A stretch of 34,429 nucleotides of DNA. It comes from Confluentibacter flavum. GTDB taxonomy: Bacteria > Bacteroidota > Bacteroidia > Flavobacteriales > Flavobacteriaceae. The position numbers were made by a program, and so were the translations under genes. Position 1 is the first letter of the stretch; every line of letters begins with the position of its first letter. The stretch is taken from NCBI RefSeq assembly GCF_002843175.1, contig NZ_PJEO01000044.1, positions 1-34,429 of the forward strand, given 5' to 3'. The notes under the pieces are model-generated. The model was not told the DNA's origin and made no database searches. It saw nothing but the letters and a program-made list of their open reading frames with translations. Below are positions 1 to 34,429 of the stretch, one piece after another.

Positions 1-74
1 AAAAAAAATGCAATTTGAATAGTATTCTATTTGGTCTCAAGGGTATTATATATATCAACAGCGATATAATAATA

Positions 75-1244
75 ATGGAATCAATTGAAATCAAAGAATT
101 ATTTAATAAATATATAAGGAGGGAATGTTCCGAAGAAGAAGTGCAACAGATTGTGGCATATTTCCAGAAATCCAAGGATTTTTCGGGTGTACCAACTATT
201 GAAGAGGTCTCAAAACTGCTAGAGGCTTATCCAGACATGGAAGAAGCCGCCGCTAATCGTATCTATAATAATATATTAGAAACAAATAAAAAGAAGCAGC
301 CGTCAATAAAAAGAATATTTCCAATCTTAAGGTATGTTGCAGCTGCGGTTTTAATTGGAATTCTTGCAACAGCTTATTTATTTCAAGATGATATAAATAA
401 TTCACCCCAAGTAAAACCATCAACCATAGTAGACAGTAATATAGTGCCAGGTACCGATAAAGCTACATTGACCTTAGAAGATGGGTCCGTTTTGGTATTG
501 GAAAAAGGCAGTACGGTCCAAACTCAAAAAGCTAATAGCAATGGGGAGAAAATCGTTTATAAATCTGGAGAAGGAAATGTTGCTAAAGTTGTATATAATT
601 ACCTAACCATTCCTCGAGGTGGCCAATTTAATATTGTTTTGTCTGACGGGACAGAAGTTTGGCTAAATTCAGAAACCCAGTTAAAGTACCCGGTAAATTT
701 TGTTAAAGGACAGACTAGGGAAGTAGAGCTTGTTTACGGAGAGGCTTATTTCGATGTCTCACCAAGTACAGTGCATGGAGGTTCAACATTCAAAGTAATC
801 AATAATGCCCAAGAAGTGGAAGTTTTAGGGACTGAATTTAATATAAAAGCTTACAAGGACGAAACCAATGTTTATACAACGTTGGTTGAAGGTAAAGTAG
901 CTGTAGGTAATGGCAAGACAATTCAAAATTTGAAACCAAATCAACAATCAAATTTTGATGTAAGGAATGGTACCATTCAAATTAAGGAAGTAGATGTGTA
1001 TGAGCAAATATCTTGGAAAGATGGCGTTTTTAGTTTTAGAAGTAAACCATTAAAAGAAATAATGAAAGTTTTGTCCAGATGGTATGATGTAGATATCATT
1101 TTTGAGAACACAGAGCTGGAATCTTTGGAATTCATAGGGTCATTGGATAAGGACCAAAATATTGAAGAAATATTATCAATTATGAAATCTTCAACAATTA
1201 ATAATTATGAAATAAAAGGAAATAAGATAATAATTTTAAAATAA
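75..1244 (+). CDS. FecR-family anti-sigma factor (left copy)
   Basis: Inner-membrane anti-sigma factor that holds an ECF sigma factor until a SusC-type transporter signals that its glycan is bound. The 389-residue protein has a cytosolic N-terminal segment, one membrane helix at about residues 87-103, a periplasmic FecR domain around residues 175-270 (core LSDGTEVWLNS) and a C-terminal DUF4974-type domain around 315-385 that should contact the STN domain of SusC. I start it at the ATG at 75. An in-frame TTG at 15 would add 20 residues with no family match. The gene lies 151 bases before the STN-containing susC, the usual order. Its sigma factor is missing here only because the window starts at this point: it precedes the second copy at 31944-32540. 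Confidence 0.93.
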   Translation: MESIEIKELFNKYIRRECSEEEVQQIVAYFQKSKDFSGVPTIEEVSKLLEAYPDMEEAAANRIYNNILETNKKKQPSIKRIFPILRYVAAAVLIGILATAYLFQDDINNSPQVKPSTIVDSNIVPGTDKATLTLEDGSVLVLEKGSTVQTQKANSNGEKIVYKSGEGNVAKVVYNYLTIPRGGQFNIVLSDGTEVWLNSETQLKYPVNFVKGQTREVELVYGEAYFDVSPSTVHGGSTFKVINNAQEVEVLGTEFNIKAYKDETNVYTTLVEGKVAVGNGKTIQNLKPNQQSNFDVRNGTIQIKEVDVYEQISWKDGVFSFRSKPLKEIMKVLSRWYDVDIIFENTELESLEFIGSLDKDQNIEEILSIMKSSTINNYEIKGNKIIILK

Positions 1245-1303
1245 AAACTAAACCAACTAATATTTATAGCCAATGAAATAAAAAAAACTTTTAAAAAAAA
1301 GAA

Positions 1304-1341
1304 GGATAAAGTTTAACCCGCAAAAGTTTATAACTCTATCC
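1304..1341 (+). promoter_or_regulatory. Imperfect inverted repeat in the fecR-susC spacer
   Basis: GGATAAAGTT at 1304-1313 pairs with AACTCTATCC at 1332-1341 with one mismatch. A short AAAGTTT direct repeat lies inside it. It stands about 55 bases before the susC start, so it could be a 5' leader structure or mark the sigma-dependent promoter region. I see no clear Bacteroidota -7 box (TAnnTTTG). The same element recurs at 33925-33962 in the second copy. The function is a guess. Confidence 0.25.
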
Positions 1342-1395
1342 CCTTGAGATTACTGAATAACTAAAATTTTTAATTAACCAATAAAACACAAATTT

Positions 1396-4300
1396 ATGGA
1401 AATAAGTTTAACTAATCCTGCCTTTCCGTTTAGAAAGCAGTTATTAATGAATATTATGAGAATAATGGTTTTCTTTTTTTGTACAGCTTTTTTCGCTTTA
1501 TCTCCTAACGATATTGTTTCTCAAAACTCTAAGGTTAAAATTGCAGAAGATAAACTATTAACAGTGAATGAAGTTTTTTATCTCATAATGGAACAAACAG
1601 ACTACAAGTTCTTTTATGAGAAAGGAATTTTTGAGGACTTTCCCAAAGTACAAGTAAAAAAAGGGGTAATAAGAACAAACGAATTACTAAAGCGAAGCTT
1701 GTCGCACGGAAATTTGGAAATTACCTTAAATGCTAACAATGCCATAATAATAAAAGAAATCCCTCCTAAAACTTTAGAGGAAAAGGTACAAGAATACAAT
1801 GTTTCCGGCACGGTAAAAGATCAGTCAGGACAACCTTTATCAGGAGCAAACATACTTGAAAAAGGCACAGGTAATGGAGTAATGACTGATTTTGATGGGA
1901 ATTTTTCAATTGAGGTTGCCAATTCAAATGCTATATTGGTGGTCTCCTTTATGGGTTTTGCCAATAAAGAAATCCCTGTAAATGGACAATCCAACATAAA
2001 CGTTACTTTAGAGGAAATCGCTGCTGGACTTGATGAGGTGGTGGTTGTAGGGTATGGAACTCAAAAGAAAACTCATGTTACTGGCTCTATAGCTACAGTA
2101 AAAATGGATGATGTTGTAAATGTACCAACTGCAAATGTTAAAAGTTTACTTATAGGACAAATACCAGGTTTAATAACCAATCAGAACCCTGGATTACCAG
2201 GTGAAGACAATGTGCAGTTAAACATTCGTGGTTTTGCTTCTCCTTTAGTAATTGTTGATGGTATTGAGTCTTATATTGATAGACTTGATCCTAACGATGT
2301 TGAGTCTATTACCGTTTTAAAAGATGCATCTGCTGCTATATATGGTGCAAGAGGAGGTAATGGTGTTATTCTAGTAACAACTAAGCGCGGAAAACAAGGT
2401 AAAACAAAAATTAATTACCATGGTTGGTATGGTACTCAGCACGAAATTGCATTACCAGAATTTGCTAATGCTGCAGATTATTTGCAGATACAGAGAGATG
2501 CTTTTTTTAATACACAATACGATCCAACCACTCCAAATAAACCTATTGATTATGGAGTTGCTACTGAAGAATTAATAAGCCAATATCGTTCTGGAGAATT
2601 AACCAGTTATGATTGGAAAAATAGATTAGTAAAGAATGGAGGTGCACAAATAGCTAATCATAATTTTAGTGTAAGTGGAGGTAGTGAGAACTTAACGCAT
2701 TATACTTCCATAGGGGTAATGAACCAGAATGGCATATTAAGAGGCGATTATGATTATGGTAAAATAACCATTACTCATAATATGGATGCTAAAATCACTA
2801 AAGATTTACATATGGCACTTAATGCATCATATATTGATGAAGTTACAGATTATGCTTCAGGTGGCGTAGCTAATATATTAAATGATTTAAGAACGTCTCA
2901 ACCATTTTATGCTTATGAATTACCAGATCCTGATAGAGTTCCATTTTCTGGCTTCAGTCAAAGGTCTATTATAGGAAGAATGTTTAAAAAATTTGCTGGA
3001 TATGATTTGAAAAAAACACAGACATTAGCGGCAGCTATGGATCTTAAGTATGATGCATCTTTTTTACCTGGATTAACACTTGGATCAAAAGTTAATGTTA
3101 GATTTAGAAATCGTTATACAGAAATATTAAATAGACCTTATGAGGTTTATACTTATAACCCGGAACTAGTAAGTAGTACTGATGACGGATATAGAATTGA
3201 AGGTGTTCAATCAGGTAATGTTTTTAGTAAAAGCTATACAGGTGGTGGTGACTCAAATCGAAGAATAGTCTCAAGGTTTTATGGACAGTTTAATAAAACT
3301 TACGATAAACATGAGATTGGACTATTGGCTTTTTTCGAACACGAAAACAATCAATACGATGGCTTAAGCGCTTCGAGATTAGATAATTTATCGCCTGATG
3401 TTCCGCAGATAGTAGGAGAAAATAAACTAACAACAACTGACGGATATGCTAAGCAATTAGAATATACAAGAATAAGCTATACAAGTAGGCTTAATTATAA
3501 TTATGATAATAAATATTTATTAGAAGCTACGTTTCGTGCAGATGCCAGTTCTAAATTTGGACCTAAAAATAGATGGGGTTACTTCCCTTCAGTTTCTGCA
3601 GGTTGGAATGTTCATAAAGAAAATTTTATGGAAAACAATAACACAATAAATCAATTAAAACTAAGATTGTCGTACAGTGAATCTGGTATTGATTCTAATG
3701 TTAGTAACACATCTTTTGATTATCTAACTGGTTTTCAAGAAACAGGGAACATATATATATTAGATGGTATGAATATACCTATTATTTCTAATGCAGGTTT
3801 AATAAACGAGCTAATATCTTGGGAAAAAGTTACTATGTATAATGCAGGTTTAGACTTTTCATTACTAAAAAGTAAAGTTTATGGAGAAGTAGATATTTTT
3901 TATAGAGAAAGAACGGGATTATTAGGTCGGGATATAGGAAACACATCTTCAATATTTGGAGCTAGTTTGCCTTTAATAAATATAAATTCTAGAAACAATA
4001 GAGGTTGGGAATTGGCATTAGGTTATAGAGATAATATTGGAGATTTTAGGTTTGATATAAAAGGTAATGTTGGGTTCTCTCGTGAAAAATACGATTATCA
4101 AGTAGAAAATATAGACTTCGATAACCCAAGGAATGTTAAATACAACCAACTTTCAGGTAATTGGACTAATAGAGTTTTTGGTTATATAACAGATGGTTTA
4201 TTTAACTCTCAAGCAGAGGTAGATGAATATCTTGCTGCTTATACAATAGAGGATATTCCTGGAACTCCAAAACCTGGAGATATTAGGTATATTGACGTAA

Positions 4301-4872
4301 ACGGAGACAATATAATTAATCTAGATGACCGTGAATTAATTGGTCGTGGTGCAACTCCAAATTTAACCTATGCCTTACAGACCATCATTTCTTATAAAAA
4401 TTGGAGTCTAGTTACACAATGGCAGGGAGCTTCATTGTTTAATATAAATGTAGGTGGTCATGTTAGGGCGCCATTTTTTACAAATCAAGTACCTCTTGCA
4501 TTTCATACAAAATATGCTTGGGTGCAAGACCCTTCAAATCCAGGAGTATCATCAAACCCTAATGCTCAAATACCTGCTTTTGAAATTTCTGGTACTAGAT
4601 CTTGGAACAATCCAAGTTCAGACTTTTGGTTAAAAGACGGTACTTACGTTAGATTAAAATCGGCAACTGTAGCTTACAGTTTACCTAAAGAAGTGCTAAA
4701 TAAAATAGGAGTTTCTAATTTAGAATTATACGTGTCTGGAGATAATTTATTAACATTATCTAAATTAGGTATTTATAAAGAAGATCATGATCCAGAACAG
4801 CTTTCGGACGCTTCAGGTTTTGGATTACCCCTAATGAGAACATTTAGTTTAGGTATAAAATTAGGGTTATAG
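1396..4872 (+). CDS. SusC-family TonB-dependent transporter with STN signalling domain
   Basis: Outer-membrane beta-barrel that imports oligosaccharides with its SusD partner, powered by TonB. The 1,158 residues read in order: a long signal peptide (about 1-43), an STN domain (about 50-120), a carboxypeptidase-regulatory-like domain (about 133-210, VSGTVKDQSGQPLSGANI), a plug (about 220-330, ending in ASAAIYGARGGNGVILVTT), then the 22-strand barrel to the C-terminus. The STN domain is not present in all SusC proteins. It marks transducers that signal through FecR to an ECF sigma factor, and fecR is the adjacent upstream gene. susD follows after 39 bases, so they are co-transcribed. The ligand cannot be read from sequence; neighbouring genes suggest a sulfated fucose-containing glycan. 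Confidence 0.96.
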   Translation: MEISLTNPAFPFRKQLLMNIMRIMVFFFCTAFFALSPNDIVSQNSKVKIAEDKLLTVNEVFYLIMEQTDYKFFYEKGIFEDFPKVQVKKGVIRTNELLKRSLSHGNLEITLNANNAIIIKEIPPKTLEEKVQEYNVSGTVKDQSGQPLSGANILEKGTGNGVMTDFDGNFSIEVANSNAILVVSFMGFANKEIPVNGQSNINVTLEEIAAGLDEVVVVGYGTQKKTHVTGSIATVKMDDVVNVPTANVKSLLIGQIPGLITNQNPGLPGEDNVQLNIRGFASPLVIVDGIESYIDRLDPNDVESITVLKDASAAIYGARGGNGVILVTTKRGKQGKTKINYHGWYGTQHEIALPEFANAADYLQIQRDAFFNTQYDPTTPNKPIDYGVATEELISQYRSGELTSYDWKNRLVKNGGAQIANHNFSVSGGSENLTHYTSIGVMNQNGILRGDYDYGKITITHNMDAKITKDLHMALNASYIDEVTDYASGGVANILNDLRTSQPFYAYELPDPDRVPFSGFSQRSIIGRMFKKFAGYDLKKTQTLAAAMDLKYDASFLPGLTLGSKVNVRFRNRYTEILNRPYEVYTYNPELVSSTDDGYRIEGVQSGNVFSKSYTGGGDSNRRIVSRFYGQFNKTYDKHEIGLLAFFEHENNQYDGLSASRLDNLSPDVPQIVGENKLTTTDGYAKQLEYTRISYTSRLNYNYDNKYLLEATFRADASSKFGPKNRWGYFPSVSAGWNVHKENFMENNNTINQLKLRLSYSESGIDSNVSNTSFDYLTGFQETGNIYILDGMNIPIISNAGLINELISWEKVTMYNAGLDFSLLKSKVYGEVDIFYRERTGLLGRDIGNTSSIFGASLPLININSRNNRGWELALGYRDNIGDFRFDIKGNVGFSREKYDYQVENIDFDNPRNVKYNQLSGNWTNRVFGYITDGLFNSQAEVDEYLAAYTIEDIPGTPKPGDIRYIDVNGDNIINLDDRELIGRGATPNLTYALQTIISYKNWSLVTQWQGASLFNINVGGHVRAPFFTNQVPLAFHTKYAWVQDPSNPGVSSNPNAQIPAFEISGTRSWNNPSSDFWLKDGTYVRLKSATVAYSLPKEVLNKIGVSNLELYVSGDNLLTLSKLGIYKEDHDPEQLSDASGFGLPLMRTFSLGIKLGL

Positions 4873-4911
4873 AATAAGCTATTAAACGTGTAATAATTTA
4901 AAAACATTCAG

Positions 4912-6681
4912 ATGAAAAAAATATTATATATACTACTTATAACAGTTATTACTATTATGAGTTGTGAAAATGACTTGATTAAAGAACCAGCTTTTATTTC
5001 CGAAATATCAGTTTTTGAAAAAGAAGAATTAACAGAAGCTTATTTAGCTAATGTTTATGAGAATATGCCATTCATGAATATGACTGGGCAAAGTCAAAAT
5101 GGGTTAGGAATTATATCTGCCGTAGGTATGGAATACACGAATTTTGCAGTTTGGCAGGAACCAAACAAAGCTCAGAACAGAATCTATTCACAAGCAGGTG
5201 GGGCAGGTGAATTAAATTATTGGCCGTATGGTAGCATACGTGACATTAACTATATTTTAGAAGGTATAGTAAACAGTAAATCATTTGACCAAAGCTATAT
5301 TAATGCTAAAATTGCAGAAGCAAAGTTTTTAAGAGCATTTATGTATTTTGAAATGGTAAAACGTTTCGGTGGTGTACCTTTAGTAACAAAAGTGTTGGAT
5401 AAAGATGCTCCTAATGAAGAAATGTTCCCAACGCGAAATACTGAAAAAGAAGTTTACGACTTTATTTATAGTGAATTAAATGAAGCCATTGCCTTATTTA
5501 CAGATGAGAAGAAAGGTGCGGACGGAAGAGCAGATAAGTACGCCGCTTTAGCTTTACAAAGTAGAGCCATGTTATATGCAGCTAGTATTGCTAAATTCAG
5601 TCAAGTTCAATTAGACGGAGTTGTTGGAATTCCTTCAGGAGATGCACAAGGGTATTATCAAAAAAGTTACGATGCTTCTCAAGCTTTAATGAGTGCAGGA
5701 TTTAGTTTATATAATAAATCTAGTGACAAGGTGAAGAATTATGGTGATTTATTTATTGATGAAGGGAATAGTGAACTCATTTTTGTGGAAAAATTTGAAT
5801 CAATCACTAGAGGGCATGATTTTGATCTTTTGGCAACACCACAAGGGTATGATTCTTCTTGGAATGCTAATTTTCAAGTATTTTATGATTTTGTAGAAAA
5901 GTTTGAATTTCAAGACGGTAGTCCAAACATACCTCGTAGTCAATTAACTACTGCCAACACATGGGATATGGATCAGTTTTTTGGAAAAAAAGATCCACGT
6001 TTTAGGGCGTCTGTATTTTATCCAGAAACTGTATATAGAGACAAACCTGTTTATTTCCATTCTAAAACTACTTATACAGACGGTGGCGTAGTAAAAACGT
6101 CTACAAATCCTAATCAAATTATTGATTATAATGGAAAATTATGGCAAGGGGCTGCTTTTCCAAGAAACATTAAAACAACGTCACTATTGTTAAGAAAAAG
6201 AATAGACCCAACTCGATTAGCTCCTAAAGATGGTGGTAGAGAATCAGGACAAGATTATTATGTGTTTAGATATGGAGAAATACTTTTAAACCATGCAGAA
6301 GCAGCATTTTATTTAAATAAGTCAGGTGAAGCCTTAACTAATATTAATTTAATTAGAGAAAGAGCAGGAATGCCTCTAAGAACTGAAGTTACGGAAGATA
6401 ATATCCGTTTAGAGCGTGAATTCGAGCTTTGTTTTGAAGATCACAGATTTTGGGATCTTATTCGTTGGAGAATAGCAACTACAGTATTAGACGGTGTTAG
6501 AACACAAGGTTTAAAGTTTGAGTATAATTTAGATACAGACCGCTATACTATAACACTTACCAATGCATCTTTTGTAGAACCTAATGTTAGAACTTTTGGA
6601 ACAGAGCGTTACTATTTACCATTAAGTCAGGGATTAATTTCTGATAATGTTAATTTGGTACAGAATCCAGGATACAATTAA
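4912..6681 (+). CDS. SusD/RagB-family glycan-binding lipoprotein
   Basis: Surface lipoprotein that caps the SusC barrel and delivers the glycan to it. The 589-residue protein starts with a lipoprotein signal ending at Cys18 (ITIMSC), followed by the SusD-like TPR region and RagB/SusD C-terminal fold. Typical family segments are KFLRAFMYFEMVKRFGGVPL near residue 140 and the RERAGMP...ERE.EL.FE.HR..DL.RW stretch near 485-525. Length is normal for the family. It is paired with susC 39 bases upstream and is followed by a hairpin at 6713-6744, as often seen after susCD pairs. Confidence 0.96.
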   Translation: MKKILYILLITVITIMSCENDLIKEPAFISEISVFEKEELTEAYLANVYENMPFMNMTGQSQNGLGIISAVGMEYTNFAVWQEPNKAQNRIYSQAGGAGELNYWPYGSIRDINYILEGIVNSKSFDQSYINAKIAEAKFLRAFMYFEMVKRFGGVPLVTKVLDKDAPNEEMFPTRNTEKEVYDFIYSELNEAIALFTDEKKGADGRADKYAALALQSRAMLYAASIAKFSQVQLDGVVGIPSGDAQGYYQKSYDASQALMSAGFSLYNKSSDKVKNYGDLFIDEGNSELIFVEKFESITRGHDFDLLATPQGYDSSWNANFQVFYDFVEKFEFQDGSPNIPRSQLTTANTWDMDQFFGKKDPRFRASVFYPETVYRDKPVYFHSKTTYTDGGVVKTSTNPNQIIDYNGKLWQGAAFPRNIKTTSLLLRKRIDPTRLAPKDGGRESGQDYYVFRYGEILLNHAEAAFYLNKSGEALTNINLIRERAGMPLRTEVTEDNIRLEREFELCFEDHRFWDLIRWRIATTVLDGVRTQGLKFEYNLDTDRYTITLTNASFVEPNVRTFGTERYYLPLSQGLISDNVNLVQNPGYN

Positions 6682-6712
6682 TTTTAATTTGAGTTAGTTT
6701 TTTTAGTTTAAT

Positions 6713-6744: not shown

Positions 6745-6829
6745 TCTAATTTTAAATAAGAAAATTAAACAATAAGTCCAAATTGAATAAACGGTATAAT
6801 TAATTTAATTCGAATACATAAAGAAGCCC

Positions 6830-8341
6830 ATGAAACTATTTATTACAATTCTTATATCTGGTTTGTTGCTAAATTGCCAATCTATTAGAAAAGAAACAAA
6901 AAAGTCGCCTGTAAAACTTAATACACCAAATATTGTAATTATATATGCAGATGATTTAGGTTTTGGAGATGTTAGCAGTTATGGGTCAACAGAGTTATTA
7001 ACCCCCAATATAGATCGTATAGCCAAAGAGGGCATTCGTTTTACAAATGGCTACGCAACTTCACCAACGTGCACGCCTAGTCGTTTTTCATTGTTATCAG
7101 GAATCTATCCGTTCAGAAGTAAACGTGCACAAGTATTACCTGGTAATGCCCCTCTACTTTTCGAATTAGGAAAACAAACCTTGCCATCTATGTTGCATGA
7201 TGCAGGTTATTTTACAGGTGTTATAGGAAAATGGCATTTGGGTTTGGGTGATGAAAATATGGATTGGAATAAAGAAGTTAAACCAGGACCTCTAGAAATA
7301 GGATTTGATTACTCGTATGTTATGGCATCAACTAATGATAGAGTCCCATCTGTTTATGTGAAAAATCATCATATTGATGGATTAGACCCAAATGATCCTA
7401 TAGAAGTAAGTTACCGTAAAAATTTTGAAGGTGAACCAACTGGAAAAGAAAATCCTGAATTATTAAAAATACACCCAAGTCATGGGCATGATATGAGTAT
7501 TCATAACGGAATCTCAAGAATTGGATACATGCGTGGTGGTAATTCAGCACTGTTTATTGATGAAGATATGAGTGATGATTTTTTAAAAGAATCAAAAAAA
7601 TATATAAACGATCATAAAGACAAACCTTTCTTTTTATTTTATAGTTTGCACCAACCACATGTACCAAGAGTACCACATCCTCGTTTTGCTGGAAAATCCA
7701 GTTTAGGACCAAGGGGGGACGTTATTTTAGAAGCAGATTGGGCTGTTGGACAGTTTTTAGATGAATTGGATAAATTAGGTTTAGCAGAAAATACAATTGT
7801 AATTTTTTCTAGTGATAATGGACCTGTTTTAGATGATGGATACAAAGATGATGCTATAGAAAAAATAGGAAAACACACACCAACAGGTGGGCTTAGAGGC
7901 GGTAAGTATAGTTTGTTTGATGCTGGAACTCATGTTCCTTTTATGATTAAGTGGCCAGCAAAAATAAAACCTGGAATTTCTAATGCTTTGGTTTGCCAAA
8001 TAGATTTTACCGCTTCTTTTGCATCTATGCTTAATCAGAAAAATACAACTTCTGATAGCGCAAATATTTTAGATGCATTTCTTGGTAAATCTGATGTTGG
8101 TAGAACAGACTTAGTTTTAGGGGATAGTAATATTACAGCATATCGAAAAGGCGATTACGTATTAATCCCACCACATAAAGGGGCTAAAATAAATTGGGTA
8201 AATCATGAAACTGGAAATGACTTAAATTATCAGTTATACAATTTAAAAAAAGACAGAAGTCAGCAACATAATTTAGCAACTCAAAATCCAGAAATGGTTC
8301 AAAGTATGCTAAACGAGATTGAGAACATAAAAAATAAATAA
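6830..8341 (+). CDS. S1-family sulfatase, lipoprotein
   Basis: Periplasmic or surface exo-sulfatase that removes sulfate esters from the imported glycan. It is a 503-residue protein with a lipoprotein signal ending at Cys16. The catalytic motif C-T-P-S-R lies at residues 81-85, so Cys81 should be converted to formylglycine. Metal-binding Asp41-Asp42 (IYADDLGFGD), the GKWHLG lysine/histidine motif and the SSDNG motif are all present, so it looks active. The CxPSR form can be matured by the oxygen-dependent FGE encoded at 30459-31574. The S1 subfamily, and therefore the sulfate position attacked, cannot be assigned by eye. It is followed at once by the remains of a second sulfatase. Confidence 0.94.
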   Translation: MKLFITILISGLLLNCQSIRKETKKSPVKLNTPNIVIIYADDLGFGDVSSYGSTELLTPNIDRIAKEGIRFTNGYATSPTCTPSRFSLLSGIYPFRSKRAQVLPGNAPLLFELGKQTLPSMLHDAGYFTGVIGKWHLGLGDENMDWNKEVKPGPLEIGFDYSYVMASTNDRVPSVYVKNHHIDGLDPNDPIEVSYRKNFEGEPTGKENPELLKIHPSHGHDMSIHNGISRIGYMRGGNSALFIDEDMSDDFLKESKKYINDHKDKPFFLFYSLHQPHVPRVPHPRFAGKSSLGPRGDVILEADWAVGQFLDELDKLGLAENTIVIFSSDNGPVLDDGYKDDAIEKIGKHTPTGGLRGGKYSLFDAGTHVPFMIKWPAKIKPGISNALVCQIDFTASFASMLNQKNTTSDSANILDAFLGKSDVGRTDLVLGDSNITAYRKGDYVLIPPHKGAKINWVNHETGNDLNYQLYNLKKDRSQQHNLATQNPEMVQSMLNEIENIKNK

Positions 8342-9149: not shown

Positions 9150-12317
<3,168 letters not shown>

Positions 12318-19733: not shown

Positions 19734-19736
19734 GAT

Positions 19737-20513: not shown

Positions 20514-20538
20514 CAAATTAAATTTAAATTAAATATAG

Positions 20539-21402: not shown

Positions 21403-21489
21403 AGTTTGTTATCAAATTTCTAAATCCGTAGGTTTTGTCAGGAAATTAGATACAATTTTATAATATTATTTTACAGGTAATTAAATTAT

Positions 21490-22269: not shown

Positions 22270-22303
22270 AATTAATTATTTAAATTATTATAATATATTG
22301 AAT

Positions 22304-24977: not shown

Positions 24978-26389
24978 TGGCCACCATAAATTCAAAAGCA
25001 TTTATTACCGATAATTTTTTATTGAATTCTGAAGTAGCCGTAACCTTATATCATCAATACGCTAAAGATTTACCTATTATTGATTATCACAATCATTTAT
25101 CTCCAAAACTTATTGCAGAAAATAAACCCGTAAACAATATAACCGAAGCTTGGTTAAATGGCGACCATTACAAATGGCGTGGTATGCGGGCTAATGGCAT
25201 AGATGAAAATGACATAACAGGAAATGCCAGTTTAGTGCAACGTTTTGAAAAATGGGCTGAAACGGTTCCTTATACCTTAAGAAACCCGTTGTTTCATTGG
25301 ACGCAACTTGAATTAAAGCGCTATTTTGATATTGATGCTATTTTACAACCAGCAACAGCTTCAGAAATTTACAGCAAAGCAAACGCCATTTTAGCACACA
25401 AAACACCTGCCCAATTATTAGAAGATATGAAGGTGGAAGTAGTGTGCACAACAGATGACCCATCAGATACTTTAGAATATCACCAAACAATTGCAAAGGC
25501 AGGTTTTTACACCAAAGTGTATCCTACATTTAGAGCCGATGAATTGTTTTTTATAGGTCAAGAAAAATTTCTACCTTATCTAAATAAATTAAGCAATGCT
25601 GTTAATTTTGAAATTTCAAATTATTCAGATTTTATAAGAGCCATAGATGCAAGAATTGCATATTTTAATGAGAATGGCTGTCGCCTGTCAGATTTTGGGG
25701 TAGGCGAAGCTTTAGTCATGGAAGCATTTACAGAAGTAGAAGTGGAAGCCATTTTTAAGAAACGATTGCAAGGTGACACACTTTCTTCATTAGAAATTAA
25801 TAAATACAGGTCTGCTATTTTCTTACATTTAGGAAAACAATACCATAAATTTAATTGGGTTCAACAATATCATTTGGGCCCTATTAGAAATAATAATACC
25901 TGTTTGGTAGAGCAAATTGGTTTAGATGCAGGCTGCGATTCTATAGCCGATTTTCCAATGGCAGAATTTATGTCTAAGTTATTCAATAGCTTAAATGCTA
26001 GCAATCAACTAGCAAAAACCATCACCTACAATTTAAACCCATCACAAAATGAAGTGTTTGCTACCATGATGGGTAATTTCCAAACTGGAGGTGTTCCCGG
26101 AAAAATGCAATGGGGTTCAGGTTGGTGGTTTTTAGACCAAAAAGACGGGATGGAAAAACAATTAAATACGCTATCAAATATGGGTTTATTAAGCCGATTT
26201 GTAGGTATGTTAACAGATAGTAGAAGTTTTCTTTCGTTTCCTCGTCATGAATATTTCAGACGCATTTTATGTGATTTGTTGGCTGAGGATGTTAACAAAG
26301 GTTTGGTGCCTAATGATATTGATTTTTTAGGAAACATGGTTCAGGATATTTGTTATAATAATGCTATGCGATATTTTAATTTCAATTAA
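24977..26389 (+). CDS. uxaC: Glucuronate isomerase
   Basis: Isomerises D-glucuronate to D-fructuronate (or D-galacturonate to D-tagaturonate) in the cytosol. The 470-residue protein has the family's N-terminal IIDYHNHLSP metal site (about 35-44), HYKWRGMRANG (about 64), CTTDDPSDTLEYH (about 156), LHLGKQYHKFN and the GWWFLDQKDGM and GMLTDSRSFLSFPRHEYFRR segments near the C-terminus. It overlaps uxuA by one base, so the two are translationally coupled. With UxuA present, and no altronate enzymes, the glucuronate branch is favoured. Confidence 0.95.
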   Translation: MATINSKAFITDNFLLNSEVAVTLYHQYAKDLPIIDYHNHLSPKLIAENKPVNNITEAWLNGDHYKWRGMRANGIDENDITGNASLVQRFEKWAETVPYTLRNPLFHWTQLELKRYFDIDAILQPATASEIYSKANAILAHKTPAQLLEDMKVEVVCTTDDPSDTLEYHQTIAKAGFYTKVYPTFRADELFFIGQEKFLPYLNKLSNAVNFEISNYSDFIRAIDARIAYFNENGCRLSDFGVGEALVMEAFTEVEVEAIFKKRLQGDTLSSLEINKYRSAIFLHLGKQYHKFNWVQQYHLGPIRNNNTCLVEQIGLDAGCDSIADFPMAEFMSKLFNSLNASNQLAKTITYNLNPSQNEVFATMMGNFQTGGVPGKMQWGSGWWFLDQKDGMEKQLNTLSNMGLLSRFVGMLTDSRSFLSFPRHEYFRRILCDLLAEDVNKGLVPNDIDFLGNMVQDICYNNAMRYFNFN

Positions 26390-26405: not shown

Positions 26406-27704
26406 ATGAAAGAAACTCAAAAGTTATCCAATTATCGTTACAGGATTTTAGGACTTTTAATGTTCGCCACCACCATTAACTATTTTGATAGGAGCCTTAT
26501 TGGGGTATTGGCCCCAACACTTGAAAAATTATTTGGATGGACCAATAGTGATTATGCCAATATTATGATATCATTTAAAGTGGCCTACGCACTGGGTTTG
26601 CTTTTTATGGGCGGTTTAATAGACTGCTTAGGAACCAAAAAAGGATATACCTTATCCATTGTTATTTGGAGTGTATTTGGTATGTTACATGCTTTTGTAC
26701 GTCCAGGTTTTAGTGTCATTGGATTCGCTGCGGCAAGATTTGGATTAGGCTTTGGTGAGTCTGGAAACTTTCCTGCTGCTATAAAAACAACTGCAGAATG
26801 GTTTCCAAAAAAAGACAGAGCTTTTGCAACAGGGCTTTTTAATGCAGCCACAAGCATAGGTGCCATCGCCGCACCTTTTGTTGTGGGGTGGATAGTACAT
26901 GAAGATGGTAAAAATTGGCAGTTTCCTTTTTTGATCACTGGGATTTTAAGTGCGTTCTGGGTATTTTTATGGTTTAAGATGTATAAAAAACCAGAAGTTC
27001 ATCCGTATGTAAGCAAAGAAGAATTGGCGTATATCCAGAGTGATTCAGAAATAGAAAATGAAGAAAAGTTGCCTTGGATAAGTGTCGTGGGCAAAAAAGA
27101 AACCTGGGCATTTGCATTGGCAAAAACAACAGATGCTGTATGGTGGTTTTACCTGTTTTGGGGGGCGAAATTTTTGGCAGATACTTTTGACGTCAATATT
27201 CACAACATAGCACTTCCATTTTTTGTAATATATATTATGGCAGATATAGGAAGTATTTTGGGAGGGTATCTTTCGGGTGTTTTTATTAAAAAAGGATGGT
27301 CTATAAATAAGTCTAGAAAAATTACGCTTCTAATATGTTCCTTAATTATATTACCAGTCGCCATGGTGGCTGTTACAGATAACAAATGGTTAGCAATTTT
27401 TTTAATCGGATTAGGCGCAGCAGGCCATCAGGCATGGTCTGCTAATATTTTTACATTAGCATCCGATGTATTTCCTAAGAAAGCAACAGCATCCGTCGTT
27501 GGTATAGGAGGTATGGTAGGGGCTGTGGCAGGTATTATTGTAGATAAAGCATTAGGTACAGTATTAGATACTGCTGGTAATACAGGTTATTTTTGGGCAT
27601 TTCTTTTGGCAGGTTCTAGTTATTTGATTGTTCTTGGGTTGGTTCATTTATTAATGCCAAATATGACGCCTTTAGATGAAAATTTAAATAAAAAATCTAA
27701 TTAA
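26406..27704 (+). CDS. MFS hexuronate transporter, ExuT-like
   Basis: Inner-membrane transporter of the anion:cation symporter type, 432 residues with about 12 hydrophobic helices. The opening NYFDRSLIGVLAPTLEKLFGW and the ARFGLGFGESGNFPAAIKTTAEWFP segment (about 100-125) are typical of ExuT/galactonate-type carriers. Position directly after uxaC (16 bases) and directly before lutA (no gap) supports uptake of glucuronate or another uronate. Transport of fuconate or lactate is possible but less likely. Confidence 0.87.
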   Translation: MKETQKLSNYRYRILGLLMFATTINYFDRSLIGVLAPTLEKLFGWTNSDYANIMISFKVAYALGLLFMGGLIDCLGTKKGYTLSIVIWSVFGMLHAFVRPGFSVIGFAAARFGLGFGESGNFPAAIKTTAEWFPKKDRAFATGLFNAATSIGAIAAPFVVGWIVHEDGKNWQFPFLITGILSAFWVFLWFKMYKKPEVHPYVSKEELAYIQSDSEIENEEKLPWISVVGKKETWAFALAKTTDAVWWFYLFWGAKFLADTFDVNIHNIALPFFVIYIMADIGSILGGYLSGVFIKKGWSINKSRKITLLICSLIILPVAMVAVTDNKWLAIFLIGLGAAGHQAWSANIFTLASDVFPKKATASVVGIGGMVGAVAGIIVDKALGTVLDTAGNTGYFWAFLLAGSSYLIVLGLVHLLMPNMTPLDENLNKKSN

Positions 27705-28442
27705 ATGAAAGTCGGGTTATTTATACCATGTTATATCAATCAATTATACCCGCAAGTTGGAATAGCGACATTAGAACTTCTTGAAAAATTAGGTGTAGAT
27801 GTTGATTATCCTATGGGACAAACCTGTTGCGGGCAACCGCTTGGAAATTCTGGATATGAAGATGATTCTAAAGGCATATGTCAATTGTTCGTTGAAAATT
27901 TTAAAACTTACGATTATATTGTTGGGCCATCCGGAAGTTGTGTGTATCATGTAAAAAAGCATTTCGATATTTTAGAGCAAACCGAAGATGTAAAACGGGT
28001 TAGAAAAAACACTTATGAATTATGTCAATTTATACACGATGTATTAGGAAAAACCCATTTAGGAGCGTCTTTTCCTTATAAAGTAGGCATTCATAAAAGT
28101 TGCCATGGTCTACGTGGATTGCGTTTAGGGTCATGTTCAGAACGGATGGACACACATTATTCAACTGAAGAAGATTTACTTAAAAATGTAAAAGGCTTAG
28201 AGCTGAAAACGTTGAAGAGGGTAGATGAATGCTGTGGTTTTGGAGGCACGTTCTCCGTATTTGAAGAAGCCATTTCGGTAAAGATGGGAAACGATAGGAT
28301 TAGAGATCATATTGATAGTGATGTTCAAGTGATTACAGGAGCAGATCATTCGTGTTTAATGCATCTAGAAGGTTTGATTAATAGGAATAAGCAACCTTTG
28401 AAAGTGATGCACATCGCAGAAATTTTAAATAGCAGTATCTAA
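27705..28442 (+). CDS. lutA: L-lactate utilisation protein LutA (CCG-domain Fe-S subunit)
   Basis: Subunit of the LutABC complex that oxidises L-lactate to pyruvate. The 245 residues contain the two cysteine-rich CCG motifs: CCGQPLGNSGY near residue 40 and CCGFGGTFSV near 177. They also contain the GPSGSC and HKSCHGLRGL segments. ATG follows the transporter stop with no gap, and lutB begins 3 bases downstream. In this locus its probable job is to use the L-lactate released from L-fucose by the hydrolase at 20539-21402. Confidence 0.93.
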   Translation: MKVGLFIPCYINQLYPQVGIATLELLEKLGVDVDYPMGQTCCGQPLGNSGYEDDSKGICQLFVENFKTYDYIVGPSGSCVYHVKKHFDILEQTEDVKRVRKNTYELCQFIHDVLGKTHLGASFPYKVGIHKSCHGLRGLRLGSCSERMDTHYSTEEDLLKNVKGLELKTLKRVDECCGFGGTFSVFEEAISVKMGNDRIRDHIDSDVQVITGADHSCLMHLEGLINRNKQPLKVMHIAEILNSSI

Positions 28443-28445
28443 ATT

Positions 28446-29813
28446 ATGGCACACGCAGACGAAGCAGCACTATTTAATAAAGATGAATCTAAAGTAGACT
28501 GGCATGATAAAGCCTTATGGTTTGTTAGGCAAAAACGAGACAAATCGGCACACAAGGTAAAAGGATGGGAAACACTTAGGGATTTGGCTTCAGCTATTAA
28601 AGCGAATGTGATGTCAAATCTTGATAACTATCTTGTTCAGTTTGAAGAAAATGCCCAAAAAAATGGAGTGACTGTACATTGGGCGGCTGATGCCGAAGAA
28701 CATAATAAAATTGTACATAGTATTCTTCAACAAACCAACGTAAAAAAAGTGGTTAAAAGCAAATCGATGCTTACTGAAGAATGCCATTTAAACCCGTATC
28801 TAGAAGCCAATGGCATTGAGGTGGTTGATACCGATTTAGGGGAACGCATCGTTCAACTAGCAAAAGAAGTACCAAGCCATATAGTTTTACCGGCCATTCA
28901 TAAAACAAAAGAAGAAGTGGACGTCTTGTTTCAAAAGCATTTAGGAACAAAACCAAGTAATGGCGATCCACAATATTTAACGAATGAAGCTAGAAAGCAT
29001 TTACGCGATAAATTCTTAAAGGCCGATGCTGCCATAACGGGAGTTAATTTTGCGGTGGCTGATACAGGTGGGATTGTTGTTTGTACCAACGAAGGAAATG
29101 CCGATATGGGTGCGCATCTTGCTAAAGTGCATATTGCTTGCATGGGTATGGAAAAACTAATTCCGCAAGAAAAACATTTGGGTATTTTTTTAAGATTATT
29201 GGCCAGAAGTGCTACAGGACAACCAATTACAACCTATTCGTCACATTTTAATAAACCAGCTCCGGGTACAGAGATGCATATTGTAATTGTTGATAATGGT
29301 AGAACCGAGCAGTTAAATCGTGAAGATTTTAGAGCATCATTACACTGCATTCGTTGTGGAGCTTGTATGAATACCTGCCCAATTTACAGACGCAGCGGAG
29401 GACACAGTTATAAAGCGACCATACCAGGACCCATTGGTTCTATTTTATCTCCGGGAAAAGATTTAACAAAGCATAGCGATTTACCATTCGCTTCCACGTT
29501 ATGTGGTTCGTGTTCAGATGTTTGTCCGGTTAAAATAAACATTCATGAGCAATTGTATAAATGGCGACAAGTTATTGTTAAAGACGTGCCACAACCTGTC
29601 GTTAAGAAAACCGTTTTAAAAATAGCAGGACGTGTGTTGGCAAATTCTAAAATGTATGGTTTTGCTGGAAAATCAGCACGTTTTATATTAAAGCATGCTC
29701 CTCGATTTGTAACGTATTCTAAATTTAATGCGTGGGGAGAAGCTAGAGATTTACCGGAAGTGAAAGATGATAATTTTGATACGTGGTATAAGAAAAGACA
29801 AAAACATGAGTAG
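28446..29813 (+). CDS. lutB: L-lactate utilisation protein LutB (LUD plus ferredoxin domains)
   Basis: Iron-sulfur subunit of LutABC. The 455-residue protein has an N-terminal LUD domain (about 60-290) and a C-terminal dicluster ferredoxin region. The first 4Fe-4S motif is CIRCGACMNTCPIY (about 301-314) and the second CGSCSDVCPV (about 355-364). The last 100 residues are the family's conserved tail. Its 3' end overlaps the likely lutC start by 8 bases, so translation is coupled. Confidence 0.94.
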   Translation: MAHADEAALFNKDESKVDWHDKALWFVRQKRDKSAHKVKGWETLRDLASAIKANVMSNLDNYLVQFEENAQKNGVTVHWAADAEEHNKIVHSILQQTNVKKVVKSKSMLTEECHLNPYLEANGIEVVDTDLGERIVQLAKEVPSHIVLPAIHKTKEEVDVLFQKHLGTKPSNGDPQYLTNEARKHLRDKFLKADAAITGVNFAVADTGGIVVCTNEGNADMGAHLAKVHIACMGMEKLIPQEKHLGIFLRLLARSATGQPITTYSSHFNKPAPGTEMHIVIVDNGRTEQLNREDFRASLHCIRCGACMNTCPIYRRSGGHSYKATIPGPIGSILSPGKDLTKHSDLPFASTLCGSCSDVCPVKINIHEQLYKWRQVIVKDVPQPVVKKTVLKIAGRVLANSKMYGFAGKSARFILKHAPRFVTYSKFNAWGEARDLPEVKDDNFDTWYKKRQKHE

Positions 29814-30387
29814 AGCATCCATTTTAAACGCAGTAAAAAAGAACAAGCCTGACTTATTGCCATTGCCAGAAATCGATTTAGATGTTTTTTCAGAAAATAT
29901 AGATTTAGTGAAAACATTTATTGGGAATGTTGAATTTGTTGGTGGGAGAGCTATTCAATTGGGTAGTGTTGAAAATATAGATTCAGAAATAAAAAACCTC
30001 TATCCTAATGCAACCAAAATAGTATCCTGTACAAGAGATTCTAATTTAGGTACCATTTCGATTTCAAAAAACACTAATCCACACGGATTAGAAACCATTG
30101 ATTTAGCTATTGTAAAAGGAGAATTGGCGGTTGCCGAAAATGGTGCGGTTTGGATTTCTGAAAATGATCTTACTATTCGGGTCTTACCTTTTATCACCAA
30201 TGATCTGATTTTAATAGTAAACAAAGAAGATATCCATTTACACATGCATAGTGCTTATAAAGCTATTTCAAAAAGAGACAGAACCTTTGGTCTATTTCTT
30301 TCAGGGCCATCTAAAACAGCAGACATCGAACAATGTTTGGTGATAGGAGCCCAGGGCGCTATAAGTTTAACGGTTTTGATTGTTTGA
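29806..30387 (+). CDS. lutC: L-lactate utilisation protein LutC (LUD domain)
   Basis: Third subunit of LutABC, 193 residues, a single LUD domain (TIVLAIVKGELAVAENGAVWI-type core near residues 100-120, LSGPSKTADIEQCLVIGAQG near 165-184). I start it at the ATG at 29806, giving MSRASIL, the normal LutC N-terminus. An in-frame start at 29767 lies inside lutB and adds only 13 unrelated residues. It ends the run of closely packed catabolic genes; the next gene begins 71 bases later. Confidence 0.92.
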   Translation: MSRASILNAVKKNKPDLLPLPEIDLDVFSENIDLVKTFIGNVEFVGGRAIQLGSVENIDSEIKNLYPNATKIVSCTRDSNLGTISISKNTNPHGLETIDLAIVKGELAVAENGAVWISENDLTIRVLPFITNDLILIVNKEDIHLHMHSAYKAISKRDRTFGLFLSGPSKTADIEQCLVIGAQGAISLTVLIV

Positions 30388-30458
30388 ATTCAAATTAGTA
30401 TTACAATCAATTTATAAAAACATTTAAAAGCATTAAATTTAATTTTAGATAGTTAGAA

Positions 30459-31574
30459 ATGACACATAAGAAGGAATTACTAATAATGGTTGTTTGTTTT
30501 TTTATAGCTATGGGTTGTAAAAGACAAACGTCTGATAAAATTGAAATTACTCATTCACCAGATAAAACTATTTCAAAAAAAATATTGGATAGTCTCATTC
30601 AAAATCCACCCAAAGATATGGTATGGATCCCTAGAGGCACTTTTTTACAAGGTGCTGTACCACAAGACAACATGGCGATGAAACATGAGAAGCCTCGACA
30701 CCCAGTAACTGTGGATGGATTTTTTATGGATATTACCGAAGTAACAAACGCCCAGTTTTCAAAATTTGTTGAGGAGACCGGGTATATAACCATAGCGGAA
30801 CGTGAGATAGATTGGGAAGAAATGAAAAAGCAACTCCCGCCTAACACACCCAAACCTCATGATTCTATTTTGCGGCCAGGATCTTTAATGTTTAAAAAAA
30901 CAAAGGAATCGGTCCCTAATCTATATGATTTCTCACAATGGTGGCGATGGGTAATTGGAGTCAATTGGAAACACCCAAGCGGGCCACATACTAACTTAAA
31001 AGGAAAAGAAAATCATCCTGTAGTCCATATTTCTTATGAAGATGCCTTGGCATATTGCAAATGGGCTAGAAAACGATTGCCAACAGAAGCAGAATGGGAA
31101 TTTGCAGCTAGAGGCAATAATAAAAACACCATGTTTTTCTGGGGAGATGAAAGAGATGGTTTATCAAAAAGGGCAAATAGTTGGGAAGGAGAATTTCCTG
31201 TAAATAACACCTTAGAAGATGGGTTTGAACGAACAGCACCCGTTAAAACATACCCACCAAATAATTTTGGTTTATATGATATGGCAGGCAATGTATGGGA
31301 GTTCACTAGTGATTGGTATAATGTAAATTATTATGAAGAGTTGGCATCAAAAAAAGATACAGCTATAAATCCAAAAGGAGCAGATAAATCATATAATCCC
31401 AGTAATCCATATTTACAGGAAAAAATAATAAAAGGGGGGTCGTTTTTATGTAGCGATTCGTATTGTGCCAGTTATAGGGTGTCTTCTAGAATGGGAACTA
31501 GTTTAGACTCTTCAGCAGAACATATTGGTTTTAGAACAATTGTAACTCCAGAGCAGTTATTATTTAAAGAATAA
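30459..31574 (+). CDS. Formylglycine-generating enzyme (FGE/SUMF1 family), lipoprotein
   Basis: Oxidises the active-site cysteine of CxPSR sulfatases to formylglycine using oxygen and copper. The 371-residue protein starts with a lipoprotein signal ending near Cys20 (FFIAMGC), then an FGE-sulfatase domain (about 55-365). The copper-binding pair Cys331 and Cys336 in FLCSDSYC has the same spacing as Cys336/Cys341 of human FGE, so activity is likely. The segments MDITEVTNAQFSKFV, LPTEAEWEFAARG and MAGNVWEFTSDWY are also typical. The lipoprotein signal places it in the periplasm, beside the exported sulfatase at 6830. It is the intact relative of the antisense fragment at 14750-15004. Confidence 0.93.
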   Translation: MTHKKELLIMVVCFFIAMGCKRQTSDKIEITHSPDKTISKKILDSLIQNPPKDMVWIPRGTFLQGAVPQDNMAMKHEKPRHPVTVDGFFMDITEVTNAQFSKFVEETGYITIAEREIDWEEMKKQLPPNTPKPHDSILRPGSLMFKKTKESVPNLYDFSQWWRWVIGVNWKHPSGPHTNLKGKENHPVVHISYEDALAYCKWARKRLPTEAEWEFAARGNNKNTMFFWGDERDGLSKRANSWEGEFPVNNTLEDGFERTAPVKTYPPNNFGLYDMAGNVWEFTSDWYNVNYYEELASKKDTAINPKGADKSYNPSNPYLQEKIIKGGSFLCSDSYCASYRVSSRMGTSLDSSAEHIGFRTIVTPEQLLFKE

Positions 31575-31943: not shown

Positions 31944-32540
31944 GTGATTAATAGCAATACAAATACCGAAAAATTATTAATTAGACAACTTACCGAGGGA
32001 AACAATAAAGCCTTTCGTAAGCTTTTTGATTATTACAGGAATGACCTCTACAAATTCAGTTTAAGTATGGTGTGTTCTAAAGACTATGCTGAAGAAATAG
32101 TTCAGGATGTTTTTATGAAGGTATGGATTAAGAGAGAATCATTAAATCCTGAAATGTCTTTTAAGTCCTATGTATTTACAATAACCCGAAACAAAAACAT
32201 AAAATTTCTGAAAAAAGCTGCGAATGACAGAAAACTCAGAGAGGAGATTTTTTATAAGAAGCAAAAATTTGCTAATTCAATAGATATTTATGTCCGAGAA
32301 TCAGAATTAGAATCTATAAAGCAGGAAGCTCTAGATAAACTATCTCCAAGAAGAAGAGAAATTTTCGAAATGTCCAGAAATGAAAATAAGAGTTATGAAG
32401 AAATAGCGGAAGAATTAGGTATTTCAATTAGCACAGTACGGAATCAAATGAGTAAATCCTTAGAGATTCTTCGTGATTTTATTTTAAAAAATAAGGAAAT
32501 TGGAATCGGGCTGTTATTATTTTATAAAGATTGGATGTAG
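31944..32540 (+). CDS. ECF RNA polymerase sigma factor (Bacteroidota PUL type)
   Basis: Extracytoplasmic-function sigma factor, 198 residues, that should transcribe susCD when released by FecR. Region 2 lies at about residues 20-65 (AFRKLFDYYRNDLYKFS, CSKDYAEEIVQDVFMKVW) and region 4 at about 130-185 (LSPRRREIFEMSRNENKSYEEIAEELGIS, STVRNQM). I accept the GTG at 31944 as start: no ATG stands upstream in frame before a stop, and the family N-terminus begins soon after. fecR follows after 155 bases. Sigma, fecR and susC in this order form the usual trans-envelope relay; only the right-hand copy of the relay is complete at its start. Confidence 0.93.
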   Translation: MINSNTNTEKLLIRQLTEGNNKAFRKLFDYYRNDLYKFSLSMVCSKDYAEEIVQDVFMKVWIKRESLNPEMSFKSYVFTITRNKNIKFLKKAANDRKLREEIFYKKQKFANSIDIYVRESELESIKQEALDKLSPRRREIFEMSRNENKSYEEIAEELGISISTVRNQMSKSLEILRDFILKNKEIGIGLLLFYKDWM

Positions 32541-32695
32541 TCTGATAGTCTTTTTGTCTTACAATTATTGCTTTTTCACCAACTTCAACCCCTTTAAATT
32601 ATTTTATTCATAAAATAGTTTAAAAAAAATGCAATTTGAATAGTATTCTATTTGGTCTCAAGGGTATTATATATATCAACAGCGATATAATAATA

Positions 32696-33865
32696 ATGGA
32701 ATCAATTGAAATCAAAGAATTATTTAATAAATATATAAGGAGGGAATGTTCCGAAGAAGAAGTGCAACAGATTGTGGCATATTTCCAGAAATCCAAGGAT
32801 TTTTCGGGTGTACCAACTATTGAAGAGGTCTCAAAACTGCTAGAGGCTTATCCAGACATGGAAGAAGCCGCCGCTAATCGTATCTATAATAATATATTAG
32901 AAACAAATAAAAAGAAGCAGCCGTCAATAAAAAGAATATTTCCAATCTTAAGGTATGTTGCAGCTGCGGTTTTAATTGGAATTCTTGCAACAGCTTATTT
33001 ATTTCAAGATGATATAAATAATTCACCCCAAGTAAAACCATCAACCATAGTAGACAGTAATATAGTGCCAGGTACCGATAAAGCTACATTGACCTTAGAA
33101 GATGGGTCCGTTTTGGTATTGGAAAAAGGCAGTACGGTCCAAACTCAAAAAGCTAATAGCAATGGGGAGAAAATCGTTTATAAATCTGGAGAAGGAAATG
33201 TTGCTAAAGTTGTATATAATTACCTAACCATTCCTCGAGGTGGCCAATTTAATATTGTTTTGTCTGACGGGACAGAAGTTTGGCTAAATTCAGAAACCCA
33301 GTTAAAGTACCCGGTAAATTTTGTTAAAGGACAGACTAGGGAAGTAGAGCTTGTTTACGGAGAGGCTTATTTCGATGTCTCACCAAGTACAGTGCATGGA
33401 GGTTCAACATTCAAAGTAATCAATAATGCCCAAGAAGTGGAAGTTTTAGGGACTGAATTTAATATAAAAGCTTACAAGGACGAAACCAATGTTTATACAA
33501 CGTTGGTTGAAGGTAAAGTAGCTGTAGGTAATGGCAAGACAATTCAAAATTTGAAACCAAATCAACAATCAAATTTTGATGTAAGGAATGGTACCATTCA
33601 AATTAAGGAAGTAGATGTGTATGAGCAAATATCTTGGAAAGATGGCGTTTTTAGTTTTAGAAGTAAACCATTAAAAGAAATAATGAAAGTTTTGTCCAGA
33701 TGGTATGATGTAGATATCATTTTTGAGAACACAGAGCTGGAATCTTTGGAATTCATAGGGTCATTGGATAAGGACCAAAATATTGAAGAAATATTATCAA
33801 TTATGAAATCTTCAACAATTAATAATTATGAAATAAAAGGAAATAAGATAATAATTTTAAAATAA
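32696..33865 (+). CDS. FecR-family anti-sigma factor (right copy)
   Basis: Identical in translation to the protein at 75-1244, including the membrane helix, FecR domain and DUF4974-type tail. The ATG at 32696 is used; the frame is open from a TTG at 32636. Here the cognate ECF sigma gene stands 155 bases upstream, giving the complete regulatory pair. If the window is a circle or overlap artefact, this is the same gene as the left copy and not a second one. Confidence 0.93.
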   Translation: MESIEIKELFNKYIRRECSEEEVQQIVAYFQKSKDFSGVPTIEEVSKLLEAYPDMEEAAANRIYNNILETNKKKQPSIKRIFPILRYVAAAVLIGILATAYLFQDDINNSPQVKPSTIVDSNIVPGTDKATLTLEDGSVLVLEKGSTVQTQKANSNGEKIVYKSGEGNVAKVVYNYLTIPRGGQFNIVLSDGTEVWLNSETQLKYPVNFVKGQTREVELVYGEAYFDVSPSTVHGGSTFKVINNAQEVEVLGTEFNIKAYKDETNVYTTLVEGKVAVGNGKTIQNLKPNQQSNFDVRNGTIQIKEVDVYEQISWKDGVFSFRSKPLKEIMKVLSRWYDVDIIFENTELESLEFIGSLDKDQNIEEILSIMKSSTINNYEIKGNKIIILK

Positions 33866-34016
33866 AAACTAAACCAACTAATATTTATAGCCAATGAAAT
33901 AAAAAAAACTTTTAAAAAAAAGAAGGATAAAGTTTAACCCGCAAAAGTTTATAACTCTATCCCCTTGAGATTACTGAATAACTAAAATTTTTAATTAACC
34001 AATAAAACACAAATTT

Positions 34017-34429
34017 ATGGAAATAAGTTTAACTAATCCTGCCTTTCCGTTTAGAAAGCAGTTATTAATGAATATTATGAGAATAATGGTTTTCTTTTTT
34101 TGTACAGCTTTTTTCGCTTTATCTCCTAACGATATTGTTTCTCAAAACTCTAAGGTTAAAATTGCAGAAGATAAACTATTAACAGTGAATGAAGTTTTTT
34201 ATCTCATAATGGAACAAACAGACTACAAGTTCTTTTATGAGAAAGGAATTTTTGAGGACTTTCCCAAAGTACAAGTAAAAAAAGGGGTAATAAGAACAAA
34301 CGAATTACTAAAGCGAAGCTTGTCGCACGGAAATTTGGAAATTACCTTAAATGCTAACAATGCCATAATAATAAAAGAAATCCCTCCTAAAACTTTAGAG
34401 GAAAAGGTACAAGAATACAATGTTTCCGG
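34017..34429 (+). CDS. SusC-family transporter, 5' part cut by the window end
   Basis: First 413 bases of a susC gene identical to 1396-1808. It covers the signal peptide, the STN domain and the first residues of the carboxypeptidase-regulatory-like domain (137 full codons). The frame is open to the last base, so the gene is truncated by the end of the sequence and not by mutation. In a circular or tandem reading it continues as the full gene at 1396-4872. Confidence 0.93.
   Translation, partial: MEISLTNPAFPFRKQLLMNIMRIMVFFFCTAFFALSPNDIVSQNSKVKIAEDKLLTVNEVFYLIMEQTDYKFFYEKGIFEDFPKVQVKKGVIRTNELLKRSLSHGNLEITLNANNAIIIKEIPPKTLEEKVQEYNVS

Follow-up and report, generated by a model that had tools for sequence, protein, structure and literature searches.

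The window analysed here, 34,429 bp from Confluentibacter flavum (NZ_PJEO01000044.1), is an entire contig (C38) of an assembly with 57 contigs and 4.14 Mb. It carries a polysaccharide utilization locus (PUL), with adjacent susC and susD genes and carbohydrate-active enzymes, between two copies of a direct repeat, R. Positions 1-1808 are identical to 32622-34429, far beyond chance, and 1808 was the sole exact terminal overlap at tested lengths from 10 nt to half of the window; the exactness of R is the assembly's statement, and minor differences between the copies may have been lost in the short-read graph. A preliminary description had reported this overlap correctly and had preferred a circle or a tandem array as its explanation. 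We favour another reading: the window is very probably an interior part of a chromosomal integrative conjugative element (ICE), some 138.6 kb long and inserted in a tRNA-Met gene, with the order C7-R-window-R-C37, where C7 and C37 are two further contigs and the PUL is cargo. The features of the window are:

1..1808, + strand: repeat R copy 1 with fecR, the fecR-susC spacer and susC codons 1-137 (sequence comparison)
75..1244, + strand: fecR anti-sigma gene, copy 1, ATG at 75 in a frame open from 15 (FecR 2e-19, FecR_C 2.7e-22)
1396..4872, + strand: susC; head in codons 1-135 (N-terminal leader and predicted STN-fold domain), TIGR04056 from residue 135, CarbopepD_reg_2 at 136-217, plug at 225-324, then barrel
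4912..6681, + strand: susD (profile match)
6830..8341, + strand: sulfatase (profile match)
8388..9149, + strand: sulfatase, C-terminal half only (profile 172-300 of 301), directly after the complete sulfatase gene
9171..12317, + strand: GH2 beta-galactosidase-type enzyme (profile match)
12323..14734, + strand: GH95 enzyme (profile match)
15019..17061, + strand: right-handed beta-helix protein, weakly lyase-like (profile match)
17440..18318, + strand: AraC-type regulator (profile match)
18399..23632, + strand: sugar-acid catabolism block of enolase-superfamily dehydratase, SDR, FAH-family hydrolase, SDR and MFS
23799..26389, + strand: uxuA and uxaC, uronate catabolism (profile match)
26406..27704, + strand: MFS transporter (profile match)
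27705..30387, + strand: LutABC-like genes with CCG, LUD/4Fe-4S and LUD domains (profile match)
30459..31574, + strand: FGE-sulfatase (formylglycine-generating-like) domain protein (profile match)
31944..32540, + strand: ECF sigma factor, immediately before R copy 2 (TIGR02985 151.7, cut-off 126.4)
32622..34429, + strand: repeat R copy 2, with the same sequence as copy 1; it leads into the susC of C37 in the favoured reading
32696..33865, + strand: fecR, copy 2
34017..34429, + strand: susC head, copy 2, running off the contig

Both ends (2,500 nt) of the 57 contigs were compared, and two all-N contigs were dropped, which left 110 ends of 55 contigs. Exact sharing with another end over at least 58 nt was found for 93 ends and over at least 500 nt for 64; 39 of the 55 contigs shared both ends with other contig ends, and one shared end was longer than R (C23/C24, at least 2,500 nt). 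Contig C37 (204 kb) starts with the 1,808 bp of R and departs from the window at base 1809, and the first 63 nt of R form the end of contig C7. In the graph, R can therefore be entered from C7 or C38 and left towards C38 or C37, so that the solution is either C7-R-C38-R-C37 or C7-R-C37 plus a circle. Given this topology and the frequency of shared ends, the circle or tandem array was not supported as preferred reading, and the circle was given up as a default once R had been seen on C37 and C7. The plain alternative of the preliminary description, that the assembler halted within a shared repeat of 1.8 kb, agrees with these data; in the favoured reading, held with high confidence as a whole, assembly stopped at both R copies and produced identical contig ends.

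The element is delimited by a 43-bp exact direct repeat (C7:13341-13383 and C37:96728-96770), whose copy on C37 is the 3' end of a tRNA-Met gene (C37:96728-96802). A tyrosine integrase gene with Phage_integrase and Arm-DNA-bind_5 domains (C7:13488-14750) lies 104 nt from the repeat. Between the two 43-bp repeats are encoded a MobB relaxase (MobB_relaxase score 398.5, cut-off 200), TraG (TIGR03783 score 328, cut-off 261.55), a coupling protein (TraG-D_C / T4SS-DNA_transf), TraM, a TraN-like DUF4138 protein and a TraK match under its curated cut-off. The element combines the relaxase, coupling protein and type IV secretion ATPase expected of an ICE with an integrase at one end, direct repeats in a tRNA gene and element-free relatives. 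The site was compared in four other genomes of the genus (G001-G004). In G002 and G003 the C7 genes, one tRNA-Met and the C37 genes are contiguous and element-free; on the C7 side seven proteins, from an ABC transporter to a SusD, are 68-95% identical, and on the C37 side the first three proteins are 86-98% identical. Upstream of this tRNA-Met, G004 has TraJ, TraI and TraG homologues (67-78%); in G001 a contig end cuts the stretch. C7 and C37 are the two sides of one insertion. The linear join of C7, window and C37 would give an element of 9,290 + 34,429 + 94,919 = 138,638 bp, for which excision and conjugal transfer are predicted. The earlier suggestion of a mobile PUL is supported in kind, though at a different scale: the mobile unit would be the tRNA-Met element, of which the window is only an interior part.

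Further observations concern the insertion site and the remaining cargo. The different TraG/TraI/TraJ stretch at the same tRNA-Met in the sister species (L235, G004:C53, 8-16759) would mark the gene as an insertion hotspot. Beside the complete gene on C37 (L167, about 96,780-96,860), a second partial 5' copy of tRNA-Met and a short palindrome were seen by eye; the partial copy is perhaps the scar of an earlier insertion. Cargo at 66-87 kb of C37 (L166-L167) includes an Eco57I-like methylase with a PLD-type nuclease and a HipA-like protein. On C7 (L008, 12001-22693), 62-bp perfect inverted repeats (15781-15842 / 22160-22221) enclose a 6.4-kb block with a sulfatase, esterase-type proteins and a DDE transposase.

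R comprises fecR, a 151-nt fecR-susC spacer and the initial 137 codons of susC. It ends at the boundary between head and core, because residue 135 is the first of the NCBIfam SusC core and residue 136 the first of CarbopepD_reg_2; past R, C37 and the window show 6 differences up to base 1866 and then diverge. With the Pfam STN model the window head stayed without a hit up to E 10; the heads of the homologous loci L044 and L048 had no match either, the 60%-identical head of L043 had a weak one (E 0.1) and the distant head of L040 a clear one. An AlphaFold2 model of the window head (8 sequences, mean pLDDT 81.8, last 15 residues under 50) had signalling-domain entries of PupR/PupB, FecA, FpvA, FoxA and PupA among its top Foldseek matches in the PDB; the best E was about 1e-3, with none counted at or below 0.001, and unrelated Dot, secretin and phage-tail proteins were matched as well. 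By fold only, the head is predicted to be an STN domain. A signal relay from STN via FecR to sigma is likewise predicted for the window system; in the model stated in PMC11501099, glycan import by SusC alters the anti-sigma factor and releases sigma. The ECF sigma gene (31944-32540) stands directly before R copy 2. Directly before R on C7 no sigma gene was detected, neither as a frame of at least 90 aa from the transposase to R nor among 13 scanned C7 proteins, so one sigma factor may serve both heads in the linear order. C7 holds a further remnant: a fecR start (90% to R 1-224) is truncated at 15783 next to the left 62-bp arm, and a 222-nt stretch, which spans the sequence before R and the first 59 nt of R, occurs twice (22468-22689 and 15399-15620, 96%; L008). 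The repeated stretch at this fecR remnant is a putative third, broken head within the element.

The SusC proteins of the window and C37 are 100% identical over residues 1-135 and 65% in the CarboxypepD domain; plug and barrel segments reach 42, 26 and 31%. In its barrel segments the window protein is 77 and 86% identical to a SusC of Wocania ichthyoenteri (L040), whose STN and FecR are only 24 and 33% identical to those of the window. Conversely, the window STN is 60-63% identical to those of L043, L044, L045 and L048, while the barrel segments of these loci have 24-33% and the plugs 42-58% identity to the window. No R-type FecR with head was present among 11 relatives of the window barrel: another FecR occurred in five (one a 64-aa match only; L040 has also a 24-aa STN match) and none was detected in six, with 8 of the 11 loci holding only 1.5 kb upstream. 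For the C37 barrel, 19 loci were fetched out of 36 non-own matches; four had an R-type head, four another FecR, and in eleven none was detected. All 7 further loci (L043-L049) have R-type heads, but they came from a search whose query included the head. Relative to its barrel, the window head is a graft, and the SusC is chimeric. The distribution suggests, without proving it, that the C37 PUL had the head first, ahead of the window's barrel.

Several points weigh against the linear element. The graph also fits C7-R-C37 plus a C38-R circle; each solution requires two R copies. C7 holds just 63 nt of R versus 1,808 on the other three ends; a 1,309-bp repeat in the same assembly has a similar imbalance, with all of it on C11.L and 63 nt on eight ends. 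A dovetail of a contig's own ends occurs in 1 of 55 contigs, C38. The amidohydrolase gene between SusD and the 43-bp repeat, outside the repeat (C7:12179-13261), is unmatched in the G002 and G003 stretches. In the linear order no sigma gene was detected directly upstream of R copy 1 in the C7 frames and proteins scanned, whereas a circle restores sigma-fecR-susC for the window, though leaving C37 without sigma; the preliminary description had seen correctly that joining the ends yields this order. A free 32,621-bp PUL circle beside a chromosomal C7-R-C37 would account for both the self-dovetail and the restored order, and the repeat graph permits it. However, no replication, relaxase or other mobilisation, or integrase match was obtained in 23 scanned window proteins (frames below 90 aa and some nested minus-strand frames were left out), which makes a stable circle unlikely, and the C7 and C37 ends explain R without it. 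We regard such a circle as very improbable. A plasmid was rejected, as replication and mobilisation matches were absent from the same 23 proteins.

A mixed population or tandem copies, that is a linear element with a detectable fraction deleted, circular or duplicated via R-R recombination, would build on identical 1.8-kb direct repeats 32.6 kb apart, on which homologous recombination acts readily. The assembly can be explained without such a mixture, which we consider improbable. Conserved ancestry through ordinary tandem gene duplication would explain why two susC genes in neighbouring PULs share a head, and both proteins have CarboxypepD and plug domains. The complete identity of the heads against the low identities of plug and barrel, and the lack of R-type FecR and head in all 11 window-barrel relatives, stand against it; a plain susC tandem duplication was rejected on the domain-wise identities, which contradict it unless evolution is far faster in barrels than in heads, and deserves hardly any credence.

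Inheritance of the head was compared with that of the transporter by pairwise identities over 55 distinct FecR-SusC pairs (Spearman, 500 permutations). The correlation of FecR with STN was 0.83 (permutation maximum 0.28), that of FecR with plug 0.06 (117/500 permutations at or above) and that of STN with plug 0.02 (212/500). The pairs had been chosen by similarity to the window FecR or SusC, and three subsets of 27, 11 and 15 pairs, with window and C37 left out, were therefore tested for bias. FecR-STN correlations were 0.39, 0.48 and 0.87 (0/500 at or above each), STN-plug correlations 0.01, 0.07 and -0.06 (218, 137 and 323 of 500) and FecR-plug correlations 0.19, 0.28 and -0.04 (37, 30 and 299 of 500). 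A weak link of FecR to the transporter is possible, as FecR-plug was weakly positive in two subsets. The carboxypeptidase-like domain correlated with the plug at 0.25, 0.47 and 0.23 (22, 3 and 22 of 500) and travels partly with the transporter. FecR similarity and STN similarity run together, largely independently of the transporter. Against free exchange, 6 of the 8 pairs with STN identity of at least 0.75 also had plug identity of at least 0.75, the exceptions being window/C37 (plug 0.32) and L169/L187 (plug 0.37). For exchange, STN identity was at most 0.33 in 13 of the 25 pairs with plug identity of at least 0.55. The weak FecR-plug link and the similar plugs of most similar-head pairs argue for occasional, not constant exchange.

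In the proposed mechanism R is a regulatory head of FecR, spacer and SusC signalling domain, present twice in direct orientation on two SusC barrels. Homologous recombination would have placed or homogenised the head on both transporters, and one FecR/STN type, probably with the sole sigma factor encoded between the copies, would gate two PULs. Recombination between the direct R copies could remove or duplicate the 32.6-kb PUL or turn it briefly into a circle; release of a 32,621-bp circle, perhaps at low level, is possible. Tentatively, and with less than even confidence, FecR, spacer and STN may be regarded as a portable input cassette: recombination would copy it to unrelated SusC importers, in this case within a conjugative element. 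If this holds true, a newly acquired PUL would be wired to a sensor and a sigma factor already present, and identical heads would make the intervening PUL able to loop out or amplify.

Exact duplicates were sought in 299 genomes of the family (own genome included), with at most 6 places scored per genome. A FecR match at E<=1e-80 was found in 63 of them, and only the own genome had places of equal score and equal identity; in G266 two places both scored 346.6 bits, but with 54 and 53% identity. Exact duplicates of this FecR type thus look rare in the sample. Apart from this survey, another search yielded Arenibacter sp. ARW7G5Y1 (L045) with a 2,811-nt direct repeat whose 18 mismatches all fall in the first 207 nt. 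The repeat contains a divergently oriented sigma gene, fecR and the susC head and precedes two different SusC genes, which are 100% identical at residues 1-150, 56% at 151-225 and 32.5% beyond; its neighbours are TraN-TraG homologues (TraJ 88%, TraG 74%). The second junction lies at a 98-N scaffold gap, and the case therefore supports head duplication without proving it. A partial CarboxypepD duplication in the same locus flanks the scaffold gap and was dropped. Paper searches, judged by title and the start of the abstract, gave no report of SusC head swapping, which is weak evidence of absence.

The sulfatases, the FGE-domain protein, GH2 and GH95 enzymes, the beta-helix protein, the sugar-acid block, UxuA, UxaC and the LutABC-like genes point to a sulfated polysaccharide containing uronic acid and fucose or rhamnose as the predicted target of the PUL. 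The FAH-family hydrolase of the sugar-acid block resembles 2,4-didehydro-3-deoxy-L-rhamnonate hydrolase below the curated cut-off. A 237-nt inverted repeat (14758-14994 / 31333-31569, 81%) has as its right arm the 3' part of the FGE-domain gene; an inverted piece of that gene, placed before the beta-helix gene, forms the left arm.

As an assembly puzzle the case is ordinary, illustrating how identical contig ends mimic a circle; its moderate interest lies in a conjugative element that carries a PUL and a duplicated regulatory head. Here a complete PUL is assigned to a flavobacterial conjugative element, and for one glycan importer the separate inheritance of sensing end and transport end can be measured. 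Such inheritance would allow a PUL to be rewired to another regulator by a single recombination step. TonB-dependent transducers are modular. Like FecA, PupA, PupB, FpvA and FoxA, which act with FecR or PupR and provided most top Foldseek hits, the window protein has a head with a predicted STN fold; unlike in these receptors, the head sits on a SusC glycan importer, is too distant for Pfam STN and belongs to an exactly duplicated FecR-STN unit. With the CTnDOT-like conjugative transposons of Bacteroidetes and Flavobacteria the element shares TraG (TIGR03783), TraM, the MobB relaxase, the coupling protein, the tyrosine integrase and a tRNA target with direct repeats. It differs from them in carrying several PULs as cargo and in a TraK under the curated cut-off. 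The Arenibacter locus likewise has a direct repeat heading two different SusC genes beside tra homologues, but there the repeat includes a divergent sigma gene and copy 2 meets its barrel at the gap. PULs on mobile elements are already known: PMC6907783 gives 47 SusC+SusD loci on mobile genetic elements of gut Bacteroidetes, and PMC5849685 postulates ICE transfer for the porphyran PUL. As in these gut Bacteroidetes, the PUL described here is cargo of a mobile element; in contrast to them, it resides in a flavobacterium and is bracketed by two identical regulatory heads.

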